From Bacteroidia bacterium (GTDB lineage Bacteria > Bacteroidota > Bacteroidia > UKL13-3): 61,380 bases of DNA. A program made the position numbers and the translations under genes. Under the pieces are notes generated by a model. That model was not told the DNA's origin and did no database searches. It worked only from the letters and a program-made list of their open reading frames with translations. The stretch spans positions 1-61,380 of the forward strand of contig JAIOYZ010000024.1 of the NCBI GenBank assembly GCA_021740845.1, given 5' to 3'. How positions within the stretch are numbered: position 1 is the stretch's first letter; each line of letters starts with the position of its first letter. Positions 27,949 to 61,380 of the stretch are shown piece by piece.

Positions 27949-27997
27949 GCTAGTTGCTAGTTGCTAGTTGCTAGTTGCTAGTTGCTAGTTGCTAGTT
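27949..27997. repeat. Heptamer tandem repeat, seven perfect GCTAGTT units
   Basis: Seven identical copies of GCTAGTT. On the other strand this is AACTAGC, so it belongs to the same NNCTRGC family as 27845-27886, inverted. Confidence 0.9.
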
Positions 27998-28071
27998 GCT
28001 TTCCCCCAAATGAGCTTTCCAAAAATTAGCATAACGCAGCCAAAGGGCTCGAAAAGCCTCTGAAAACAAAA

Positions 28072-51496: not shown

Positions 51497-52462
51497 TTAT
51501 TTCTTAAAAAATTCGATTACTTTTTCTGCAAGCTCGATGCTAATTCTGTTTTGCGCTTCTTTGGTGCTACCACCAATATGCGGGCTAACAGAAACATGAG
51601 GATGTTGTAAAATGCTTAAATTTACTGGAGGTTCTTTTTCAAAAACGTCTAAACCAGCAAATGAAACCTGACCAGAATTTAAAGCTTCTAACAAATCAGA
51701 TTCGCTAATAACACCACCACGAGAGCAATTGATTAGGCCAACTCCTTTTTTCATTTTAGCTATTTTGGCTGCATCAATTGGAGCCTTATCGCCTTCGCTA
51801 AATGGAATATGGAAAGTTATAAAATCACTTTGAGCTATTACGGATTGTTCGCTAACGGTATTTATACTCACCTTAACACGAGAATGAGCACCTAACATGG
51901 GTAGGTTTAATATTATATCAACCGTATCAACATAAGGGTCAAAAGCTAAAACTTTCATGCCTAAACCAATAGCAATTTTTGCCGCTTCTTGACCAATTCT
52001 TCCAAAGCCATAAATACCCATGGTTTTGCCTTGCAGTTCTATTCCGTTTGAACCGATTTTTTTCATTTCAGCAAAACGTGTATCGCCTTCAGCAGGCATT
52101 ACTCTATTTGTTTGTTGTAAAAAACGAATGCCACTAAATAGATGGGCAAATACTAATTCGGCAACACTTATAGAAGAAGAGGCAGGTGTATTAATAACTC
52201 GAATGCCTTTTTGTTTGGCATGATCCAAATCAATATTATCCATACCAACGCCACCCCTACCAATTAACTTAAGGTTAGGGCAAGCATCCATTAAATCTTT
52301 TCTAACTTTTGTTGCTGAGCGAACCAAAATGGCATCAAAATTTTGAAGGGCAACAGGCAATTGATCTTGAGCAACCTTTTCGGTTACAACTTCAAAACCT
52401 GCAGCTTCTAAAATTTCTTTTCCGTTGGTATCAATTCCATCGTTTGCTAATATTCTTATCAT
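51497..52462 (-). CDS. serA: D-2-hydroxyacid dehydrogenase, probable D-3-phosphoglycerate dehydrogenase
   Basis: 321 residues, short form without a regulatory ACT domain. NAD-binding Rossmann motif GIYGFGRIGQEAAKIAIGLG (about residues 147-166), substrate-site GRGGVGMDNIDLD, catalytic His in SPHIGGSTKEAQ and Arg in NCSRGGVI. With serC next door, the role is the first step of serine synthesis, oxidising 3-phosphoglycerate. Separated from serC by 88 bases that consist mostly of heptamer repeats. Confidence 0.88.
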   Translation of the reverse strand: MIRILANDGIDTNGKEILEAAGFEVVTEKVAQDQLPVALQNFDAILVRSATKVRKDLMDACPNLKLIGRGGVGMDNIDLDHAKQKGIRVINTPASSSISVAELVFAHLFSGIRFLQQTNRVMPAEGDTRFAEMKKIGSNGIELQGKTMGIYGFGRIGQEAAKIAIGLGMKVLAFDPYVDTVDIILNLPMLGAHSRVKVSINTVSEQSVIAQSDFITFHIPFSEGDKAPIDAAKIAKMKKGVGLINCSRGGVISESDLLEALNSGQVSFAGLDVFEKEPPVNLSILQHPHVSVSPHIGGSTKEAQNRISIELAEKVIEFFKK

Positions 52463-52482
52463 TTATGGGGGGAGTTATGAAG

Positions 52483-52545
52483 TTTTAAGTGTTAAGTTTT
52501 AAGTGTTAAGTTTTGGGTTTTGGGTTTTGGGTTTTGGGTTTTGGG
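52483..52545. repeat. Nine-unit heptamer tandem repeat in the serC-serA gap
   Basis: Nine 7-bp units in unbroken register: TTTTAAG, TGTTAAG, TTTTAAG, TGTTAAG, then TTTTGGG five times. It begins 21 bases before the serA start and ends 6 bases after the serC stop, so it would lie within the shared transcript. Confidence 0.9.
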
Positions 52546-52550
52546 TTTGG

Positions 52551-53621
52551 TTAGGAGTTGGCTTTTTCGAATTCTTGCATGGCATCTACTAGGGCTTGAA
52601 CACTTTCTATTGGTAGGGCATTATAAAGAGAGGCACGTAAACCACCTACGGAGCGATGACCTTTTAGGCCGCTAAGGTTTTTCTCTTTGCAATACTTAAG
52701 GAACGACTCTTCTAAATCTTTGTTGGTAAGTACAAAATTTACATTCATGCGGCTTCTATCTTCAGCAGCAACGGTTCCAACAAATAATGGATTGCGATCT
52801 ATTTCTGTATATAATAAATCTGCTTTTGCTTTGTTGCGAACTTCCATAGCCTCTAACCCCATAGATTTAATCCAACGCAAAGTATGCATGCAAACAAAAA
52901 TGGCAAATACACTTGGAGTATTATACATACTGCCATTATCTATATGCACTTTATAATTAAGCATGGTTGGCACTTTGGCATTTGCTTTTTCTAGCAAAGA
53001 CTTTTTAATAATCACCAAAGTAGTTCCAGCAGGACCCATATTTTTTTGAGCACCCGCATAAATCATATCAAACTGGTTGGCATCAAATGGGCGACTAAAA
53101 ATATCAGAACTCATGTCGCAAATAAGCGGCACATTTGTTTTAGGGAATGAAAATAACTCTGTTCCGTATATGGTATTGTTGCTAGTACAATGGAAATAAG
53201 CCAAATCTTCTGGGATTGCGTAATCTTTAGGAATATAGCTGTAATTTTTATCTTCACTACTTGCTAAAACATTTACATCGCCAAACATTTTTGCTTCTTT
53301 AACAGCTCTACCAGCCCAAACACCTGTATTTACATAACCCGCAGTTTTACCAGCAGGCAAGAAATTCATAGGAATCATATCAAATTGAAGGCTGGCGCCA
53401 CCTTGTAAAAAAACTACCTCGTAATCTGCACTTAGGTTAAGAATATCTTTTACCAATTGTACAGCCTCAGCCACCACAGCCTCGTACTCTTTACTTCTGT
53501 GTGAAACCTCAATTAAAGAAAGGCCTGTTCCCGAAAAATTTTGTAGCGCCTCAACGCTTGCATCTATGGCAGATTGAGGTAAAATTGCTGGACCAGCAGA
53601 AAAATTATGTATTTTGCTCAT
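52551..53621 (-). CDS. serC: Phosphoserine aminotransferase
   Basis: 356 residues, PLP-dependent class V aminotransferase converting 3-phosphohydroxypyruvate to phosphoserine. Motifs: HNFSAGPAILPQSAI at the start, SLIEVSHRSKEYEAV, PLP-lysine region YAGAQKNMGPAGTTLVI (Lys about residue 192), and a C-terminal GLKGHRSVGGLRASLYNA. First gene of the serine cluster; no promoter consensus was seen in the 72-base gap upstream. Confidence 0.96.
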   Translation of the reverse strand: MSKIHNFSAGPAILPQSAIDASVEALQNFSGTGLSLIEVSHRSKEYEAVVAEAVQLVKDILNLSADYEVVFLQGGASLQFDMIPMNFLPAGKTAGYVNTGVWAGRAVKEAKMFGDVNVLASSEDKNYSYIPKDYAIPEDLAYFHCTSNNTIYGTELFSFPKTNVPLICDMSSDIFSRPFDANQFDMIYAGAQKNMGPAGTTLVIIKKSLLEKANAKVPTMLNYKVHIDNGSMYNTPSVFAIFVCMHTLRWIKSMGLEAMEVRNKAKADLLYTEIDRNPLFVGTVAAEDRSRMNVNFVLTNKDLEESFLKYCKEKNLSGLKGHRSVGGLRASLYNALPIESVQALVDAMQEFEKANS

Positions 53622-53687
53622 GTTTTTTACGTTAATAGCAGTGCGAATTAATAAAACCTTCTTTTAATTTTATCCATATTATTCATT

Positions 53688-53695
53688 TATTTTTG
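53688..53695 (+). promoter_or_regulatory. -7 element for the beta-barrel gene at 53.7 kb
   Basis: TATTTTTG fits TAnnTTTG and ends 6 bases before the ATG, so the transcript would be nearly leaderless. Confidence 0.4.
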
Positions 53696-53701
53696 CCCAA
53701 T

Positions 53702-54280
53702 ATGAAAAAACATTCCATTCTACTATTCATTTTAACTCTTGCCACCTTTTCTAGTTTTGGCCAAAGAAAGTTACAACAATTGGATGAAGAGGAGGCAAAA
53801 AAGCAAGAACAACTAAAGGCTTACGAAAAAAAAGACAATAAGTTTGATACGGATAAATTGGTTTATGGCGGCAATGTAGGTATTTCTTTTAGCGGAGGTG
53901 GAACTTATATTTTGGCCCAGCCAATGGTTGGTTATAAAGTTCTTCCCAAAACTATTTTAGGAACAGGCTTTACCTATGTTTACCAAAGCATTACCTTTAA
54001 TAACGTGAAATATTCTACAAGTGCTTATGGCCCCATTTTATTTGCTAGGCAAAATCTTTTTGGGCAAATTTTTGCGCATGGAGAATACCAACCTATCAAT
54101 TATGAAAGAACCAGTTCTGCATCTTTAAAAAGCGAAAGAATTTGGTCGAACCAATTATTTGTTGGAGGAGGTTTAGGAGGAAATGGAGTACAAGTTTATG
54201 TGCTGTACAACTTACTTTATGATGAAAATAGTTTTTATTCTACCAGTCCTTGGTATATTCGAGTAGGTTTTATGTTTTAG
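53702..54280 (+). CDS. Secreted beta-barrel-like protein of unknown function
   Basis: 192 residues from the ATG giving MKKHSILLFILTLATFSSFGQ (signal peptide). An in-frame TTG 9 bases earlier lies inside the promoter element and is rejected. An acidic/Gln-rich helix follows (LQQLDEEEAKKQEQLKAYEKK), then alternating strands (YGGNVGISFSGGGTYILAQP, LGTGFTYVYQSITF, NQLFVGGGLGGNGVQVYVLY) ending in RVGFMF, a C-terminal Phe typical of outer-membrane barrels. No family recognised. It overlaps the convergent rhomboid gene by 4 bases. Confidence 0.7.
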   Translation: MKKHSILLFILTLATFSSFGQRKLQQLDEEEAKKQEQLKAYEKKDNKFDTDKLVYGGNVGISFSGGGTYILAQPMVGYKVLPKTILGTGFTYVYQSITFNNVKYSTSAYGPILFARQNLFGQIFAHGEYQPINYERTSSASLKSERIWSNQLFVGGGLGGNGVQVYVLYNLLYDENSFYSTSPWYIRVGFMF

Positions 54281-54885
54281 AATTGGTTCAAAAAGAATTT
54301 AAAAACAGCAGGCTTAAAAACCAAGGTAAACACTATTCCGTAAATGGCTCCATAAAAATGGGCATCGTGATTTATATTATCCCTACCTTTTTGGGCAGCG
54401 TATTGCGAATAAACTAAATATAGAATTCCTGCTATATAGCCTGGTATTCCAATGATTCCGTATAAATAAATTTTGGCAGTAGGTTGAAATAAAATAGAAG
54501 CAAAAACCACTGCCGAAACTGCGCCTGATGCCCCTAAAGCATTGTAGGCAGGATTGTTTTGTTGTTTGTAATATGTGGTAGCATTTGCGGCAAAAATTCC
54601 GCTTAGGTAAAGCAATAAATACATCCAATTTCCGGCTGAACCAAAAAAGTATTTGTAATAATGCTGAACCACATTACCGAAGCTATAAAGTACGAACATA
54701 TTTATGATTAGGTGCAACCAATCTCCATGTAAAAAACCCGATGTAACAAAACGATACCATTGGTTTCTTTGTTTGATTACAAATGGATTGAAAATAAGAT
54801 TGTTCATTACTTGTGTTTGGCTGAAAGCCTGAATACTTATAATTGCAGTAATAACAATGATTACGAGTGTTAGGTCTGAAAACAT
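54277..54885 (-). CDS. Rhomboid-family intramembrane serine protease
   Basis: 202 residues, about six helices. The catalytic serine is in LGASGAVSAVVFASI (GxSG, about residue 118), and the histidine is probably in NHDAHFYGAIYGIVF near the C-terminus. The N-terminal half has RFVTSGFLHGDWLHLIINMFVLYSFG, the conserved HxxxxHxxxN surroundings (His, Asn). It cleaves transmembrane proteins within the membrane; substrates unknown. Convergent with the beta-barrel gene and divergent from the phosphoesterase. Confidence 0.9.
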   Translation of the reverse strand: MFSDLTLVIIVITAIISIQAFSQTQVMNNLIFNPFVIKQRNQWYRFVTSGFLHGDWLHLIINMFVLYSFGNVVQHYYKYFFGSAGNWMYLLLYLSGIFAANATTYYKQQNNPAYNALGASGAVSAVVFASILFQPTAKIYLYGIIGIPGYIAGILYLVYSQYAAQKGRDNINHDAHFYGAIYGIVFTLVFKPAVFKFFLNQF

Positions 54886-54917
54886 GGGTCAAATAAACAA
54901 TTTTTAAAGCAAAAAAT

Positions 54918-55412
54918 ATGAAGCAAATTGGAATCATGAGTGATACCCATGGATTTTTAAATCCTTCTTTATTCGAATTCTTTAAAAACTGTGATGAAAT
55001 TTGGCATGCAGGAGATTGGGGAGATATTACTGTTTATGAGCAATTGGTTCGGTTCAAACCGCTAAAAGGTGTTTATGGAAATATTGATAGCCAAGAAATG
55101 CGCCTACTTTTCCCAGAACATTTGTATTTTGAGATAGAAGGGATAAAAGTTTTTATGATCCATATCGGAGGATATCCAGAACATTATTCGCCAGGATTTA
55201 AAAAAATTATGCACCAACAGAAAATTGATTTGATGATTTGTGGACATTCTCATATCCTAAAAGTTATGCGCGACCCCAAAAATAATTGGATGCATATGAA
55301 CCCTGGAGCCTGCGGAAAACATGGTTTTCAGAAAGTTAATACCGCAATTAGGCTGAGGATAGAAAATGGCAAAATGAGTAATTTGGAAGTTTGGGAACAA
55401 AAAAGAGATTGA
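54918..55412 (+). CDS. YfcE/MJ0936-type metallophosphoesterase
   Basis: 164 residues, calcineurin-like phosphoesterase fold. Metal ligands visible: MSDTHG (residues 7-12), HAGDWGD, VYGNIDS, CGHSHI and MNPGACGKH. The family hydrolyses phosphodiesters such as cAMP analogues in vitro; the physiological substrate is unknown. Starts 32 bases from the divergent rhomboid gene. A GGTTTGAACC motif in reverse (55051) encodes VRFKPL, the only coding copy using that reading frame. Confidence 0.88.
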   Translation: MKQIGIMSDTHGFLNPSLFEFFKNCDEIWHAGDWGDITVYEQLVRFKPLKGVYGNIDSQEMRLLFPEHLYFEIEGIKVFMIHIGGYPEHYSPGFKKIMHQQKIDLMICGHSHILKVMRDPKNNWMHMNPGACGKHGFQKVNTAIRLRIENGKMSNLEVWEQKRD

Positions 55413-55517
55413 TTTGACGCAACCCCACCAAATATTGAATTGACTTATTTAAATAAATTATTATTTTGCTCACCCAAACGAATTCTACTTTTAGGGTAAA
55501 TTATGCCTTTTTTAGAT

Positions 55518-55525
55518 TAAATTTG
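55518..55525 (+). promoter_or_regulatory. Candidate -7 element for the M43 protease gene
   Basis: TAAATTTG fits TAnnTTTG, 30 bases before the ATG. Confidence 0.4.
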
Positions 55526-55555
55526 GATTAGAACTAAAACAAAAAGAACACATAT

Positions 55556-57805
55556 ATGAAAAAGTTATTACTAATTGGATCTTTGTTTTTTATGGGTTTA
55601 ATGGCCAATGCGCAAAATGGCAACACCAATTCGTGTGGAACGGATCAGCATTTAGCGGAGCAAATAAAAAACAACCCTTCTTTAAAAGCGGCCAAAGAAA
55701 ACTACGAAGCCAATTTAAAGGAGTTGATGAAAAACTATAATCCGAACGATTATAGAACCAAAGCTGGACAACAAAAAAAGGCTACCATTAAATATATTAT
55801 TCCAGTAGTGGTGCATGTATTCCATAACAATGGAAGCGAGAATATCAGTGAAGCTCAGGTGAAAAGTGAAATTGATTTCTTAAACAAAAGTTTCAGAAAT
55901 TTAAACTCTGATACCATTAATAGAAGAGCTGGAATGTTTATTACGCCTAGTGGCGATACCAACTATTACGACAATAAATCTTTGGCTGCTGATATTGAAG
56001 TAGAATTTAGATTGGCAAAAAAAGACCCTCAAGGTAATTGCACCAATGGTATTGTAAGAATATTTACTCCATTAACCAATAAAGGAAACGATGAGTTGAA
56101 AAAAATGAGTGTTTGGGATACCAAGCGTTATTATAATATCTGGGTAGTAAAACAAATTAACAGAGGAAATACAATTGGTATTGCTGGTTATGCTCAATTT
56201 CCATTTGGTTTTGGTGGCGGAGCTTCAACAGATGGTATCATGGTAATTCACAATGAATTTGGAAATGTTGGAACCTCACAACCTGGTCAAACACCTAATG
56301 TTACAACCTCAACTCACGAAACAGGACATTGGTTAGGTTTGTACCATCCGTTTCAAATTAGCTCAGACAGTTGCGGTACAGATGGAGACGGAGTATTTGA
56401 TACCCCTCCTACCTATTTTAGCCCTAACTCAACAGAGCCTTTGCGTAATAAATGTAGTAACAAGAGTTATAATACTTGTTCTACTGAAAAGCCAGACCTT
56501 CCAGATATGCAAGAAAACTATATGGATTATTTTATAGGCAATTGCGCTAGTAATATGTTTACTTTAGAGCAAAAAGCTAGAATTCATACAGTTTTAGAAA
56601 ATTTTCGTTTTACCTTATGGCAACCAGAAAATCTTGCCTTCACTGGTGTTGATGATTTGAGTCCTTCTACTTGCCCACCAGTTGCAGCATTTAATTCTCA
56701 AGCACCTTTTACTTGTGCAGGTAGCAAAGTATTGTTCTTAGATTATTCTTATGGCGGTACCATTAATACTTACGAGTGGACATTTGAAGGAGGAACTCCA
56801 GCAACTGCAACAGGCAAGGTACCCGGCCAAATTCAATATGATAACGCAGGAACTTATGATGTTACTTTAAAAGTAACTGGACCTAATGGAAGCAATACTA
56901 TTACACTTCCTGATTATGTTACTGTATTGCCAGCTTCAAGTAATTTGCCTGGTGGTTATTATACTGCTGATTGGTGGTATCAAAACAATTGGGAAGAAAA
57001 AGGATGGAGATTTGTTTATGAAAACGACCAAAATCAATTCAAAAGATTTGGCATTTCTTATAACCAAAATGCAAGTATGCGTTATTCACAAGATCCATTT
57101 AACCAATACAACTCAGTTGGAAGCATCAGTTCATTGATTTCGCCAAGTTTCGACTTTTCTGGCACTACTACGGCTTATTTCTCTTTTAATTATGCATTCG
57201 CTCAAGCAGTATTGTCATCAACAGTAGGTGGAGGAAATACAGCAGAGGAATTAAAAGTTTATACCTCTGTAGATTGTGGTAAAACATGGATAGTAAGAGA
57301 AACAATCAATAGCACCAATATTTCAACTATTGGTACTGGATCATCAGCAACTCTTTCAAGTGCAATTGACTTTATCCCTGCAGACCAAAGCAAATGGAAA
57401 ACAGTTACAGTAAGTGGAGCTAAAATTCCTTCCAACTCGAATGTTAGATTTAAAATTGAATTTAAATATTCTGGTGGTAATAACTTCTACTTAGATAATG
57501 TGAATGTAGGTTTAAGTACCGGTTTGAATCAAAATTTAGCTGATGCAATTCAGTTTAAAGCACAACCAAATCCATTTAATGTAAGCACTAATTTAATTTA
57601 CAATTTGGTATCTAGCGAAAATGTAGAAATCCATTTGTTCGATATCTTAGGAAAAGACCTTGGAACTGTATTTAGTGGAACTCAGGCAGCAGGTTCTCAA
57701 AATGTAGAAATTGAGAAAAACGCCTTCCATTTAACCCCAGGAATCTACTTAGTGAACATGAAAATTGGAAATTCTACCTTGAACCATAAAATAATTGTAG
57801 AATAA
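55556..57805 (+). CDS. Secreted M43 (pappalysin-like) zinc metalloprotease with PKD and T9SS type A domain
   Basis: 749 residues. Signal peptide ending LMANAQ, a propeptide-like segment, then the M43 domain with zinc motif HETGHWLGLYHPF (residues 254-266: HExxH plus a third His) and the Met-turn NYMDYF (about 321). A PKD domain follows (about residues 373-457), a jelly-roll-like beta region of roughly 200 residues, and a C-terminal type A sorting domain (AQPNPFNVSTNLIYNL through LTPGIYLVNMKIGN). Exported through type IX secretion and probably processed at the cell surface. It has its own promoter and terminator. Confidence 0.93.
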   Translation: MKKLLLIGSLFFMGLMANAQNGNTNSCGTDQHLAEQIKNNPSLKAAKENYEANLKELMKNYNPNDYRTKAGQQKKATIKYIIPVVVHVFHNNGSENISEAQVKSEIDFLNKSFRNLNSDTINRRAGMFITPSGDTNYYDNKSLAADIEVEFRLAKKDPQGNCTNGIVRIFTPLTNKGNDELKKMSVWDTKRYYNIWVVKQINRGNTIGIAGYAQFPFGFGGGASTDGIMVIHNEFGNVGTSQPGQTPNVTTSTHETGHWLGLYHPFQISSDSCGTDGDGVFDTPPTYFSPNSTEPLRNKCSNKSYNTCSTEKPDLPDMQENYMDYFIGNCASNMFTLEQKARIHTVLENFRFTLWQPENLAFTGVDDLSPSTCPPVAAFNSQAPFTCAGSKVLFLDYSYGGTINTYEWTFEGGTPATATGKVPGQIQYDNAGTYDVTLKVTGPNGSNTITLPDYVTVLPASSNLPGGYYTADWWYQNNWEEKGWRFVYENDQNQFKRFGISYNQNASMRYSQDPFNQYNSVGSISSLISPSFDFSGTTTAYFSFNYAFAQAVLSSTVGGGNTAEELKVYTSVDCGKTWIVRETINSTNISTIGTGSSATLSSAIDFIPADQSKWKTVTVSGAKIPSNSNVRFKIEFKYSGGNNFYLDNVNVGLSTGLNQNLADAIQFKAQPNPFNVSTNLIYNLVSSENVEIHLFDILGKDLGTVFSGTQAAGSQNVEIEKNAFHLTPGIYLVNMKIGNSTLNHKIIVE

Positions 57806-57823
57806 TTATCCTGATACTCAACA

Positions 57824-57860
57824 AAAAACCCTCGTAAACGAAAGTTTACGGGGGTTTTTT
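57824..57860 (+). terminator. Intrinsic terminator of the M43 protease gene
   Basis: Twelve-pair stem (AAACCC-T-CGTAAAC with GTTTACG-G-GGGTTT, one GU pair) capped by a GAAA tetraloop and followed by six T. Confidence 0.92.
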
Positions 57861-57906
57861 AATTTAACATTTGGAGTAAATAAGTCAGAAACCTACTTTT
57901 GCACCC

Positions 57907-57991
57907 GGAGAGTTGGCAGAGTGGTCGATTGCGGCAGTCTTGAAAACTGTTGTCTGTTACAGGACCTGGGGTTCGAATCCCTAACTCTCCG
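57907..57991 (+). tRNA. tRNA-Ser (anticodon UGA)
   Basis: Acceptor arms GGAGAGT and ACTCTCC, discriminator G, a D-arm with GGCAGAGTGGTCGA, anticodon stem-loop CAGTCTTGAAAACTG with anticodon TGA, a long class II variable arm (TTGTCTGTTACAGGA) and T-arm GGGGTTCGAATCCC. CCA is not encoded. The long variable arm and discriminator G fit serine. Confidence 0.97.
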
Positions 57992-57997
57992 CCGTCG

Positions 57998-58023
57998 CTC
58001 ACCGAAGTTTTAGCGTAGGTGAG
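57998..58023. repeat. REP-like dyad copy downstream of the tRNA
   Basis: Outer arms CTCACC/GGTGAG around the GCTAAA core of the family (read on the minus strand). A further CTTCGGTGAG at 58078 can pair with its left arm. Confidence 0.6.
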
Positions 58024-58034
58024 TATTTTGAAGA

Positions 58035-58066
58035 ACCGATCAGATTTACTTCTGGTCGGTTTTTTT
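58035..58066 (+). terminator. Intrinsic terminator of tRNA-Ser
   Basis: Nine-pair stem ACCGATCAG/CTGGTCGGT with one GT wobble, followed by seven T. Confidence 0.85.
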
Positions 58067-58121
58067 GTGCCCGATAGCTTCGGTGAGCTATGGCGGAGAA
58101 ACTCCGCCTAGATGCAGCGGG

Positions 58122-58388
58122 AATCAGTTTGAGTTGGGGTGTGGGCATACAGGAGTTGCCCTTCTTGCCTCTTGCTCAAACTGTATGCCTAATCAGTTGG
58201 AGTTTGGGCATACTGGAGTTATTACCTCTTGCTCCTATCTCAAACTGTATGCCTAATCAGTTTGAGTTGGGGTTTGAGCATACAGGAATTAATCCTCTTG
58301 CTCAAAACTCAAACTGTATGCTGATTTGGGGTGTGGGCATACGGGAGTTAATCCCTCTTGCTCGAAACTCAAACTGTATGCTGATTCA
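58122..58388. repeat. Tandem array of four ~60-69 bp hairpin units
   Basis: Four units (58122, 58191, 58255 and 58323, lengths 69, 64, 68, 60) plus a fragment. Each has GCATACAG near its start and CTGTATGC near its end, able to pair. Units 1 and 3 differ by a compensatory change (GGCATACAG/CTGTATGCC versus AGCATACAG/CTGTATGCT). A second arm pair CAGTTTGAG/CTCAAACTG overlaps the first, allowing alternative folds. Confidence 0.85.
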
Positions 58389-58421
58389 GAAGCCACCCCC
58401 TCAAGGGATCAGCGACGAAGG

Positions 58422-58581
58422 TGCTAATCCAAGCATGAAACGTATGAGCTAATCCAAGGATAATTTGCGTTCATTCATAAGTCCACCTTCGCTAAAGCTA
58501 CGGTGGACGAGGTAAGCTAATCCAAGCGTGATTTGCGTTCATTCATAAGTCCACCTTCGCCAAGGCTACGGTGGACGAGGG
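58422..58581. repeat. 67-bp tandem repeat carrying REP-like hairpins
   Basis: Two full copies (58448-58514, 58515-58581) and a 26-bp start of a third (58422). Each full copy contains a dyad with 7-bp arms GTCCACC/GGTGGAC. The inner core is GCTAAAGC in one and GCCAAGGC in the other, a paired change that keeps the dyad. Confidence 0.88.
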
Positions 58582-58921
58582 GAAATCATTCTTTTTTTTA
58601 GAATGCCCATTTCGGCAAATTCACCAAGGTATTTACTCGCGGTAATTTCGGCGTAAAAGTGCTTGTTGATTGGGTGTTTTACCTTAGTAAATGACTGAGT
58701 AAAAAGTGCATTAAAAAATATAGAATCTTAAGACTAGGTATATTTGTGACCATAAAATATCTACTTAAACATATGCTCACCTTAAATTTAATGTTTCTTC
58801 AAGGTTATCAGTTAATCTAAGCTCAATTGGATTGAAGTTATTAACTTTATAATTCTTAAAAACACATAGGATGCGAAGTGGAATTTTAAAATAACTTTGC
58901 ACTTCCATTTCAATTAAAACC
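58582..58921. other. 340-base gap before the unrecognised 400-residue gene
   Basis: AT-rich. Holds the downstream gene's promoter candidate (TAACTTTG, 58892-58899). Nothing else is recognised. Confidence 0.5.
58892..58899 (+). promoter_or_regulatory. Candidate -7 element
   Basis: TAACTTTG matches TAnnTTTG, 22 bases before the ATG at 58922. Confidence 0.4.
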
Positions 58922-60124
58922 ATGCGCAACTACGAAAGTATTAAACAAACCTGTAAAAATAATTCAAAAATAGCCGCTACGGTGATAGATGAATTTATCC
59001 TGTATTATGCGGCAGATAAAGACAAACTGCATCAAATTATCTTGGGTCATTTAAAAAAATATAAGGAGATTATTCAAGAAATCGGGCAGGAAACAACTAA
59101 CAAATTAATTGCCCAATACATGGCTCACAGGGTTTTTAAGGAAAACGGACTCATAAAAAAGTACCTAAATCATTCGGCTATTAAAAATCTGATACCAACA
59201 GAATACGCATTTCTAGAAGAGGAATCTAAATCAGCGTGGAAATACAGATACTCTGTGATTGTAGGCAATCCAGCTCCCGATTTTTATGAGATGTATGATG
59301 TATTTAGAGAAGAGGAATTTTTATTGTATTCGCCCGGAACTACTTTAACATTTGAAACTCAAAGTCCCATTCTATGGTTTAATTTAACCGCATTTAATGG
59401 CGAATGTTGGGCAACTTTTGGTCCTATTACTGGATATAATGGATTTAATGAGGATGATATTTTCTTTTTTGCTACCGAGCTTAATCCAGATATAGAAAGC
59501 GGTGAAGAGCTAATTGAAGAGTTAGAAAAAAATCCGATACCCTTTTCTATGCTGCTTAGCAATGCAAATGTACCTAGGGTAAAAAACTCTCAATCTGGCG
59601 AAGAAATACTTCTTCACCAAGCTATAGACCAGGTGGATTCATTAGATACCGAATCATTAAAAGAGAAGTTTAATATTGCTTGGAACAAAGATGTGTATCA
59701 ACTCAACCTAATCGGATTTTCGGAGGCACCACATAGTGCAATTGCCTATTACGATGAAGCCCAAAAACTACTCATGCGCACTTCGCTTACAGCCCATGGA
59801 TTTGATGCCCTAAGCAAAGCCTTACAACATTTACCTATAGAAAACTTGGCAGATGTGCTTGTTTCTTTACCAATGAAAACTTGCGCTGAGGAGATTTTAA
59901 ACAAAACCATCGACTTAATTCCCTATGAGCATTTATTTTCAAAAGAAATTTCTAGTAAAGAACAGCAAGAAATGGATGAATTAAATGACTTTTTGCACAT
60001 ACTTATACCCTATGTAAATGCAGGTGAGGAACCAGATTTACAAACCCTAGCCCAACAAGCCAAGCTCCCCTACCAAACTGCCCAAGACCTTTGGAGGATA
60101 GTAAGTAAACATAAGAAAAGCTAA
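58922..60124 (+). CDS. Uncharacterised cytosolic protein of 400 residues
   Basis: No family recognised. No signal peptide or membrane helix. The N-terminal ~110 residues are helical and charged; the middle (about 110-240) looks beta-rich and aromatic (SPILWFNLTAFNGECWATFGP, GFNEDDIFFFATELNPD). The C-terminal third is helical and acidic and ends in PDLQTLAQQAKLPYQTAQDL, which could be a small helix-turn-helix. It has its own promoter candidate and converges on the WYL regulator gene, between repeat-rich blocks on both sides. The frame is well supported by length and codon pattern. Confidence 0.6.
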   Translation: MRNYESIKQTCKNNSKIAATVIDEFILYYAADKDKLHQIILGHLKKYKEIIQEIGQETTNKLIAQYMAHRVFKENGLIKKYLNHSAIKNLIPTEYAFLEEESKSAWKYRYSVIVGNPAPDFYEMYDVFREEEFLLYSPGTTLTFETQSPILWFNLTAFNGECWATFGPITGYNGFNEDDIFFFATELNPDIESGEELIEELEKNPIPFSMLLSNANVPRVKNSQSGEEILLHQAIDQVDSLDTESLKEKFNIAWNKDVYQLNLIGFSEAPHSAIAYYDEAQKLLMRTSLTAHGFDALSKALQHLPIENLADVLVSLPMKTCAEEILNKTIDLIPYEHLFSKEISSKEQQEMDELNDFLHILIPYVNAGEEPDLQTLAQQAKLPYQTAQDLWRIVSKHKKS

Positions 60125-60169
60125 ATGGAGTGAAGATTCCTTAGGAATTTGCCATTTGGTGATAGACCC

Positions 60170-60190
60170 GCCAGCAGCCAGAGGCCAGTA
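60170..60190. repeat. Three heptamer units of the NNCTRGC family
   Basis: GCCAGCA, GCCAGAG, GCCAGTA in register, the reverse complement of the NNCTGGC units at 27845-27886. Lies between the two convergent stop codons. Confidence 0.6.
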
Positions 60191-60201
60191 GTATAAGCCA
60201 C

Positions 60202-61104
60202 CTACTTTTTATACAATTCCAAAGTAGACAAAAGGAGCTTTTTGACTTCAAAACGAAGGTTGGCTGGTGCGAGAACTTTTACTTGATCGCCCATGAGGAG
60301 GATTTGTTGGATTAGTTCATAGTTTGGAATTAGGTTCAAAACGAATATAACTGCATCTCTTGTTTCAGATTCTATGTATTGAGAGGAATGCAAGGGTGAA
60401 GCGTTTAAATATTTTGCTTGCAAGGGTGTGAGCTCCAAGCGTACTTTTTGCATTTCATTATCTGAATAATTTAAACCAATTATTTGTTCAAATTTCTTCC
60501 TTGCTTCTATGTTGTTCTTGGCTACAAATGTTTTTGTTTCCATATCCAAATCAGAAATTCGGTCGCAGCCAAAGGTTCTGTAATCTCCCTCTTTAATTTC
60601 ACCAATTACATACCAGCGATACTGGTATTGTTTCAATAATATTGGTTTGATCCGATAGGCTGTAATTTTATTGGTATGGTAATTTGTATGCTTAAAATTT
60701 ATATACCGCTTATTCTGTATGGCAAATAAAATATTTCTTAGGTTCTCAACTCCCTGCAAACGGAGCTTAGAATCAAACTGAACCAATTGCATCAGCTCTG
60801 CCATGCGTTTCTTCCCTCCTATTTCAATTCCTGTGGATTGAGATAGCTGCATAAAATTTAGAAAGAGTTCTACTTCAAAATCATTTGACTTCTCAAATAA
60901 ATATCCCTTTTCACTGGCATCATATATAATATCGAGCCCAAATTCATTGCGCATTTGTTCAATATACCTTGCTATGGTTCGATCCGATTTCCCCAATTCA
61001 TGCGATTCAAGAAAGGCTTTCAATTCTACTAATGAGGTGCTTTTTTGCCTACTCAATTTCTCTAGTATTAAAGCATAAATATGTAAGGTTGCATGTGTGG
61101 CCAT
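60202..61104 (-). CDS. WYL-domain transcriptional regulator
   Basis: 300 residues from the ATG giving MATHATLHIYALILEKL; an in-frame TTG 9 bases upstream is less likely. N-terminal helix-turn-helix (LVELKAFLESHELGKSDRTIARYIEQM), a YDASEKGYLFEK wing, and a WYL domain near residues 140-200 (INFKHTNYHTNKITAYRIKPILLKQYQYRWYVIGEI). WYL regulators sense nucleic-acid or nucleotide ligands and often control defence or DNA-damage genes. No defence gene is seen inside the window; the upstream side runs off its edge. Confidence 0.88.
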   Translation of the reverse strand: MATHATLHIYALILEKLSRQKSTSLVELKAFLESHELGKSDRTIARYIEQMRNEFGLDIIYDASEKGYLFEKSNDFEVELFLNFMQLSQSTGIEIGGKKRMAELMQLVQFDSKLRLQGVENLRNILFAIQNKRYINFKHTNYHTNKITAYRIKPILLKQYQYRWYVIGEIKEGDYRTFGCDRISDLDMETKTFVAKNNIEARKKFEQIIGLNYSDNEMQKVRLELTPLQAKYLNASPLHSSQYIESETRDAVIFVLNLIPNYELIQQILLMGDQVKVLAPANLRFEVKKLLLSTLELYKK

Positions 61105-61192
61105 GAAGGGCAAATTAGGGAAAGTTATTTAAACAGCCATTGAAGGTTACTTTCTGCTGCTTTGAAAAATCTGCCTTGAAAGGATGTTTTGT

Positions 61193-61214
61193 CCCTTTTT
61201 GCTTGATCAAAAAG
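61193..61214. repeat. Palindrome CCTTTTTG...CAAAAAGG
   Basis: Eight-bp arms around CTTGAT, followed by AACCAAAAAATCAAG. Similar dispersed sequences are, in my experience, frequent in Bacteroidota genomes near regulatory or mobile junctions. Function unknown. Confidence 0.5.
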
Positions 61215-61247
61215 GAACCAAAAAATCAAGACTTATTTCTGTACCTG

Positions 61248-61369
61248 GTCATTGTAAAAAATAAATAGCTGCTGCGCGACCCAAGCCGCAAGGCTGATTT
61301 TGCTTGAGTATAGCCTTGCTCGTGGGTCACTTTCACCGGCCAGCCGCACGTATTTATTTTAACAATGAC
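61248..61369. repeat. ~120-bp nested inverted-repeat element
   Basis: Outer imperfect arms GTCATTGTAAAAAATAAATA and TATTTATTTTAACAATGAC; inner pairs GACCCA/TGGGTC and AAGGCT/AGCCTT. The interior is more GC-rich than its surroundings. It could be a MITE-like element or a structured RNA; there is no reading frame. Confidence 0.55.
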
Positions 61370-61380
61370 TGGCGGTTCAG

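Follow-up and report, generated by a model that had tools for sequence, protein, structure and literature searches.

MITE-like elements (e.g., RUP, BOX, and RU-1/2/3) are short, non-coding, non-autonomous, dispersed elements with inverted ends. Hairpin DNA is also found at structured RNA genes, as in the intervening sequences of 23S rRNA, which adjoin an IVP ORF, and integron attC sites carry GTTRRRY/RYYYAAC cores and are accompanied by gene cassettes. REP, BIME, and REPIN repeats are described as small non-coding palindromes that form tandem and mosaic arrays and are mostly intergenic (PMC3733652). Among the free-standing GIY-YIG homing endonucleases, the phage enzyme SegB is reported to cut tRNA-containing DNA and so to cause tandem amplification via microhomologies (PMC13096335).

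Here we analyzed an array of palindromes behind a tRNA-Ser gene of a Bacteroidia bacterium. The window is the whole stretch of 61,380 nt (contig C7), and the genome to which it belongs comprises 4,088,294 bases in 66 contigs. A search by title and abstract opening, which mostly covered literature outside subscription, found no paper that dealt with these repeats or with GIY-YIG elements at the ends of bacterial tRNAs.

Results

The host RNA gene of the tail, tRNA-Ser with anticodon TGA, lies at 57907..57993 on the + strand (ARAGORN; Rfam tRNA, 55.1 bits), and all features of its tail are given on the + strand. Behind the gene come, in this order, the tail cassette F2, four units of a palindrome termed F1, the module F3, and two copies of the repeat F4. 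F2 (57986..58099 in the inverted-repeat listing) has two arms, at 57986-58007 and 58078-58099, which are 91% complementary, and the first arm overlaps the acceptor strand of tRNA-Ser. Sequence reading places a probable terminator inside F2 at 58034-58066, a site absent from the list of the consensus terminator scan. In 8 of 11 tails with F2, the far arm of the cassette complements the acceptor 3' strand of the RNA that hosts it (the window, L218, L223, L005, L014, L009, L019, and L012; not reported for L008, L018, and L030), with GGCGGAG(A) matching CTCCGCC at tRNA-Ser and GGTGGAG matching CTCCACC at tmRNA.

The first-pass annotation had described a tandem array of hairpin units behind tRNA-Ser, and this array was confirmed as four imperfect palindromes of 64 to 69 nt at 58122-58389, beginning about 130 nt 3' of tRNA-Ser(UGA). 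With R1, a sequence-only model, unit 1 (58122..58190; 69 nt) scored 63.1 bits at 58122-58188, and unit 2 (58191..58254; 64 nt), in which the left arm is altered, scored 56.5 bits at 58193-58252. Unit 3 (58255..58323; 69 nt), the nearest to the family consensus AATCAGTTTGAGTTGGAGTGTGAGCATACAG...CTCTTGCTCAATACTCAAACTGTATGCTGATT, scored 81.8 bits at 58255-58326, and unit 4 (58324..58389; 66 nt), which lacks the outer left arm, scored 58.1 bits at 58327-58386. TRF reported the array with a period of 64, 3.9 copies, and a score of 250, the top of 11 rows for the window. F3 (58388..58430; CCCCC...GGGATCAGCG...CTAATCC), recognized by sequence reading and by a pattern match at 58396-58414, stands 3' of the array in the window and precedes the array in some relatives. 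F4 is a 68-nt repeat present twice at 58447..58580 (direct-repeat listing; TRF score, 233), each copy with the hairpin CCACCTTCGC...GCTACGGTGG.

Altogether, 408 of the 600 nt 3' of tRNA-Ser are self-repetitive, while 603 control stretches reach at most 102. The repeat listing for 57600-59000 contained no second tRNA-Ser 3' end near the array, and the ORF list for 52000-61380 contained no GIY-YIG or IVP ORF near it. Two ORFs across the array (63 and 120 aa) were set aside on reading as mere translations of the repeats. Elsewhere in the window, perfect 7-nt tandem repeats were observed, with 7.4 copies of GCTAGTT at 27949-28000 and 5.6 copies of GTTTTGG at 52510-52548.

We then analyzed the pairing within the units. 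The dyad GCATACAG/CTGTATGC, which had been attributed to each unit, is exact in units 1 and 3 and inexact in units 2 and 4, where unit 2 carries GCATACTG (one mismatch) and unit 4 carries GCATACGG (one G-U). Units 1 and 3 also have the complete second arm, CAGTTTGAG; unit 2 has the changed form CAGTTGGAG, and unit 4 lacks this arm. The left arm of the palindrome reads AATCAG-TTTGAG-...-CATACAG, and the right arm, in its complement pattern, reads AATCAG-CATACAG-TTTGAG. The proposal of two exclusive structures stands insofar as the dyads overlap and are unable to coexist; as structures, they are alternative foldings on paper only. Compared with shuffled sequences, units 1 to 4 gave z scores of -4.6, -1.5, -5.0, and -2.1 for RNA folding and -3.7, -1.6, -5.9, and -1.8 for DNA folding. 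Units 1 and 3 fold strongly relative to shuffles, while the folding of units 2 and 4 is modest and not clearly exceptional.

The swap from G-C to A-T, which the first-pass annotation regarded as direct evidence for selection or biased copying, does exist at one pair beside a unit junction, where G-C is found in units 1 and 2, A-T in unit 3, and G-T in unit 4. Since R1 is a model of sequence only, the copies it retrieves were not selected for structure. It gave 22 copies from four genomes (21 distinct rows), which were aligned as A4; in this alignment, the column of the swap holds gaps for units 1 and 2. In A4, the first dyad was paired in 91.6% of the cells and had no two-sided pair change, a count that all 500 of 500 shuffles at least equaled. 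The second dyad with the inner stem had two double changes, which 65 of 500 shuffles matched; its 92.1% of paired cells exceeded all slid versions, as with any true palindrome. The outer ends AATCAG...CTGATT were paired in 96.3% of 54 cells and showed no two-sided change, with covariation not beyond shuffles. RNAalifold retained four pairs, one of which had a single double change. Covariation was rejected for all three helices (the first dyad, the second with the inner stem, and the outer ends), as none clearly exceeded the shuffled controls.

The loss of the swap as compensatory evidence upon alignment of more units had been named beforehand, together with an absence of other copies, as the outcome that would speak against it. 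This loss was found with the 21 distinct copies; the other half of the condition is false, since F1 does have further copies. Because the swap is one junction-side pair, units 1 and 2 are gapped, and covariation is absent, direct evidence for selection is unsupported. The swap was thus a false lead: when neighboring tandem copies differ by such an exchange of a base pair, this is not evidence for a selected structure, since duplication and junction effects can yield an identical picture.

As the first-pass annotation had anticipated, F1 has copies elsewhere, and they were found in relatives. In the R1 searches, 150 or 77 candidates per genome were scored, so weak copies may be missed. Of the 19 genomes of the genus, at least four (G000, G002, G011, and G013) have near-full copies with E < 1e-14. 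Among the candidates scored in 64 genomes of the order, matches with E <= 1e-4 occurred in five genomes, all in the genus, and the fifth (G003) has longer relatives only. No F1 was found in the best 80 serC-relative loci (best E, 0.11). Among the candidates scored in the 64 genomes, F1 is by these matches a genus-restricted palindromic repeat, predicted to be non-coding. The exact F3 pattern was present in 5 of the 19 genomes, including all four with F1. The other near-full F1 of the window's own genome is on contig C57 behind tRNA-Ser(GCT) with the same F2 cassette, at 91% identity over 142 nt.

The arrays have grown by units and half-units. In G011 and G013, the left half-unit forms head-to-tail runs with a 34-nt period, and at a locus shared by these two genomes (L007/L021) the number and order of half-units differ, while the 400-nt flank behind the array agrees at 394 positions. 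F1 copies of one genome resemble each other: the distance was 0.108 within the same genome and 0.180 between genomes, a difference reached in 0 of 2,000 permutations. Copies at one locus were not closer (0.111) than copies at different loci of one genome (0.106). The within-genome likeness and the 34-nt half-unit runs in sister species argue for array growth by local duplication, and local duplication together with exchange between loci would fit the F1 distances. At the isolated copy L017, the right flank was found in other genomes and the left flank was not; neither a clean empty site nor a target duplication was found at this locus, where only the right flank matched elsewhere.

The tails of one and the same tRNA vary widely among relatives. 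Of 23 tRNA-Ser(TGA) tails found, seven under 600 nt were dropped, including L075 and L108 with repeats visible by eye. At least 60 self-repetitive nt were present in 3 of the 16 full tails and in 13 of 603 controls, and two of the 16 were above all controls. A general repeat hotspot behind tRNA-Ser(TGA) was set aside as weak on these counts. At the syntenic tRNA-Ser(TGA) place of other species, unrelated repeats were observed, namely, GCTTCCGAAGGAAGC hairpins (L108) and a repeated long hairpin module (L112).

Longer palindromes that share the ends AATCAG...CTGATT with F1 were reached through weak R1 matches and the word TTTGAGTTGGAGTGTGAG. The word had 68 matches in 11 of the 19 genomes of the genus, compared with 6 for the reversed control word. 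This wider family is tied to RNA 3' ends: in 11 of 29 clusters, the 3' end of an intact or displaced tRNA or tmRNA precedes the palindrome by no more than 300 nt, against 0 of 30 RAYT loci (Fisher, 0.00012) and 18 of 1,880 random places (Fisher, 3e-14); for the remaining 18 clusters, no such end lies within this distance. The 29 clusters were counted in 29 sources chosen for this purpose, in which orthologous loci were entered separately; two of the sources (L022 and L216) have no match to the word. Outside the count were G013:C61, C130, and C169; G012:C173 and C179; G011:C40; and L217, at which the palindrome sits 5' of tRNA-Arg.

The distance from the end of the RNA to the start of the palindrome is exactly 2 nt for five tmRNAs and 3 nt for one tRNA-Met. 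At L212 (G013) and L213 (G011), the tmRNA gene is intact, and the array leads on to an IVP ORF; at L214, L216, and L279, ARAGORN gives no whole tmRNA gene for the 3' end that the palindrome follows. On contig C47 of the window's own genome (L311), two copies of the palindrome follow tRNA-Met, and a truncated GIY-YIG frame comes after them. The word TTTGAGTTGGAGTGTGAG starts about 10 nt behind tRNA-Asn or a fragment of it at L313 and L218. On contig C49 of the same genome (L310), half a palindrome lies behind tRNA-Ala and a degenerate copy of tRNA-Ala; the nearest listed RNA end there, assigned to tRNA-Arg and 59 nt away, is probably a terminator matched by chance, and the locus was still counted because the true tRNA-Ala copy ends 77 nt away. 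The suggestion that the tRNA 3' side serves as an integration target thus agrees with the wider family, with its 11 of 29 clusters and six loci at 2 to 3 nt. For integration of the window array at tRNA-Ser it found no counterpart, as no second tRNA end lies near the array.

GIY-YIG domains were present in all 19 genomes of the genus, with UvrC and other long proteins counted, and the genomes with F1 are not those richest in GIY-YIG. Among 20 small GIY-YIG places, a fetched subset of those listed (L311 excluded; L227 and L245 are one place), an RNA 3' end or fragment was found in 13, and a second one in 9 of these 13. At five loci, a small GIY-YIG ORF separates a tRNA gene from an additional copy of its 3' end, and each copy has its own terminator. 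These ORFs are at tRNA-Asn (L252, 1383-1838), tRNA-Leu (L247, 1346-1858), tRNA-Arg (L249, 1362-1781), tRNA-Ala with several copies (L250, 1298-2087), and tRNA-Ser (L107, 223-594). L107 is the syntenic tRNA-Ser(TGA) place of another species, where another tRNA-Ser 3' end comes after the frame, which on reading is GIY-YIG-like.

In the window's own genome, contig C57 has a GIY-YIG ORF (L218, 318-602; 50.1 bits) preceded by two 3' fragments of tRNA-Asn; the 3' end of this ORF overlaps an F1 unit that belongs to the tail of the opposite tRNA-Ser(GCT). The truncated frame at L311 scored 22.3 bits, with a cut-off of 22.6. On contig C40 (L223, 794-2647), the tail of tmRNA consists of a long array in which a hairpin unrelated to F1 (CTCACCTACGC...GCTTCGGTGAG) recurs, then a GIY-YIG ORF and a truncated IVP ORF. 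ORFs of the 23S-IVP (four-helix) type (Pfam PF05635) were found within about 1 kb of the palindrome arrays L210, L212, L213, and L214; they belong to one subfamily (MFDFEKLxVYQKAK), and three of these four arrays are behind tmRNA or a tmRNA fragment.

Discussion

Our preferred reading, to which we assign a probability of about 0.5, is that F1 is a tandem repeat and a branch of the wider family at RNA 3' ends, and that its arrays arose by duplication and nuclease-promoted repair growth with the palindromes as passengers. The wider family would settle behind tRNA and tmRNA 3' ends or displaced copies of them, at several places beside a GIY-YIG or 23S-IVP ORF. The second dyad may have arisen once, when a template switch copied CATACAG next to AATCAG in the right arm. 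Breaks at the ends of RNA genes, mended through short homologies, would account for growth and spread; GIY-YIG nucleases acting nearby or in trans would promote these events, with the palindromes carried along. By analogy with SegB, GIY-YIG cutting is a plausible driver of tail duplication, and it perhaps promoted the enlargement of the F1 arrays. Since the window array has neither a GIY-YIG ORF nor a second tRNA end, this driver is one that we infer for the locus. Several findings weigh against the preferred reading: the 18 clusters away from RNA 3' ends, the palindrome 5' of tRNA-Arg at L217, the lack of a GIY-YIG or IVP ORF in the list for the window array, copies at one locus that are no closer than those at different loci of a genome, the missing clean empty site at L017, and the F1 genomes not being the richest in GIY-YIG. 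A function of F1 as RNA is not supported.

A more far-reaching view, which we regard as doubtful, is that a chromosomal mobile system of Bacteroidota targets tRNA and tmRNA 3' ends and has in the palindromes its cis-acting, non-coding component. GIY-YIG proteins, and perhaps IVP, would cut or bind, tails would be copied from gene to gene, and the arrays would be ORF-less derivatives. If the link to GIY-YIG is true, these palindromes would be small residents of the genome that land at the ends of essential RNA genes, and GIY-YIG cutting with short-homology repair would be a testable cause for how fast the tails of tRNA and tmRNA genes change within one genus.

Ordinary slippage and drift, in which terminator hairpins duplicate by slippage and template switching and the debris is kept with neither nuclease nor mobile element, is possible but somewhat unlikely. 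It would account for the wide differences between relatives in the tail of the same tRNA, for the unrelated-hairpin array in the tmRNA tail of the window's own genome (L223), and for the 34-nt half-unit runs, and it agrees with the missing target duplication at L017, where the right flank alone was matched elsewhere. However, one palindrome occurs 2 to 3 nt behind tmRNA and tRNA-Met, near tRNA-Asn, and also at intergenic places in several genomes; some form of spread is needed because the same palindrome stands behind different RNA genes and in intergenic DNA. Spread of the REP/BIME type, moved by a RAYT (Y1) transposase, is suggested by the small palindromes in tandem mosaic arrays and by the RAYT-type genes in 15 of the 19 genomes of the genus. 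We nevertheless consider it most unlikely, as none of the 30 fetched RAYT loci had an F1 match at E <= 0.05, the loci read (L054 and L044) bear different palindromes, few F1 copies occur per genome, and neither tag word, GTAG or CGTC, nor its complement is present within 58122-58389 on either strand.

That the array is a functional structured RNA or a back-up terminator array, with two alternative foldings acting on the tRNA transcript, is improbable. Units 1 and 3 do fold better than shuffles, the dyads overlap, and by reading the wider family could act as a terminator at tmRNA genes, but covariation is absent, the arms are broken in units 2 and 4, and the consensus scan found no terminator-like site inside the array. 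Over the locus, Rfam gave tRNA alone at the gathering threshold; MIR7533, mir-988, and ST7-OT3_4 appeared in the array with E up to 5, far below gathering, and were rejected. An integron attC array or a CRISPR-like array can hardly be meant by the tandem imperfect palindromes and the regular 34-nt repeats of relatives, since reading of the array showed no GTTRRRY core with a partner, no cassettes, and no spacers between units.

The preferred reading, growth by duplication and nuclease-promoted repair, can be set beside the described systems. F1 shares its small palindromes and tandem, mosaic arrays with the REP repeats, but it differs from them (PMC3733652) in its length of about 60 to 100 nt instead of 20 to 40, its few copies, and its tie to RNA-gene 3' ends. 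Like the MITE-like elements, F1 has inverted terminal sequences (AATCAG...CTGATT), although the target duplication was not found at L017, with its single matched flank. The 23S rRNA intervening sequences adjoin an IVP ORF within 23S rRNA, while the IVP-linked arrays described here are behind tmRNA or a fragment of it. With the SegB kind, the genus has in common GIY-YIG ORFs beside tRNA genes and tandem duplication of tRNA-containing DNA (PMC13096335). It differs in that bacterial chromosomes are concerned, that the places are tRNA and tmRNA 3' ends with displaced 3' fragments of putative GIY-YIG elements, and that the window array itself has no such ORF. Among these systems, F1 is best described, by its sequence features, as a small palindromic interspersed repeat, with the unusual trait that its family is linked to RNA 3' ends.
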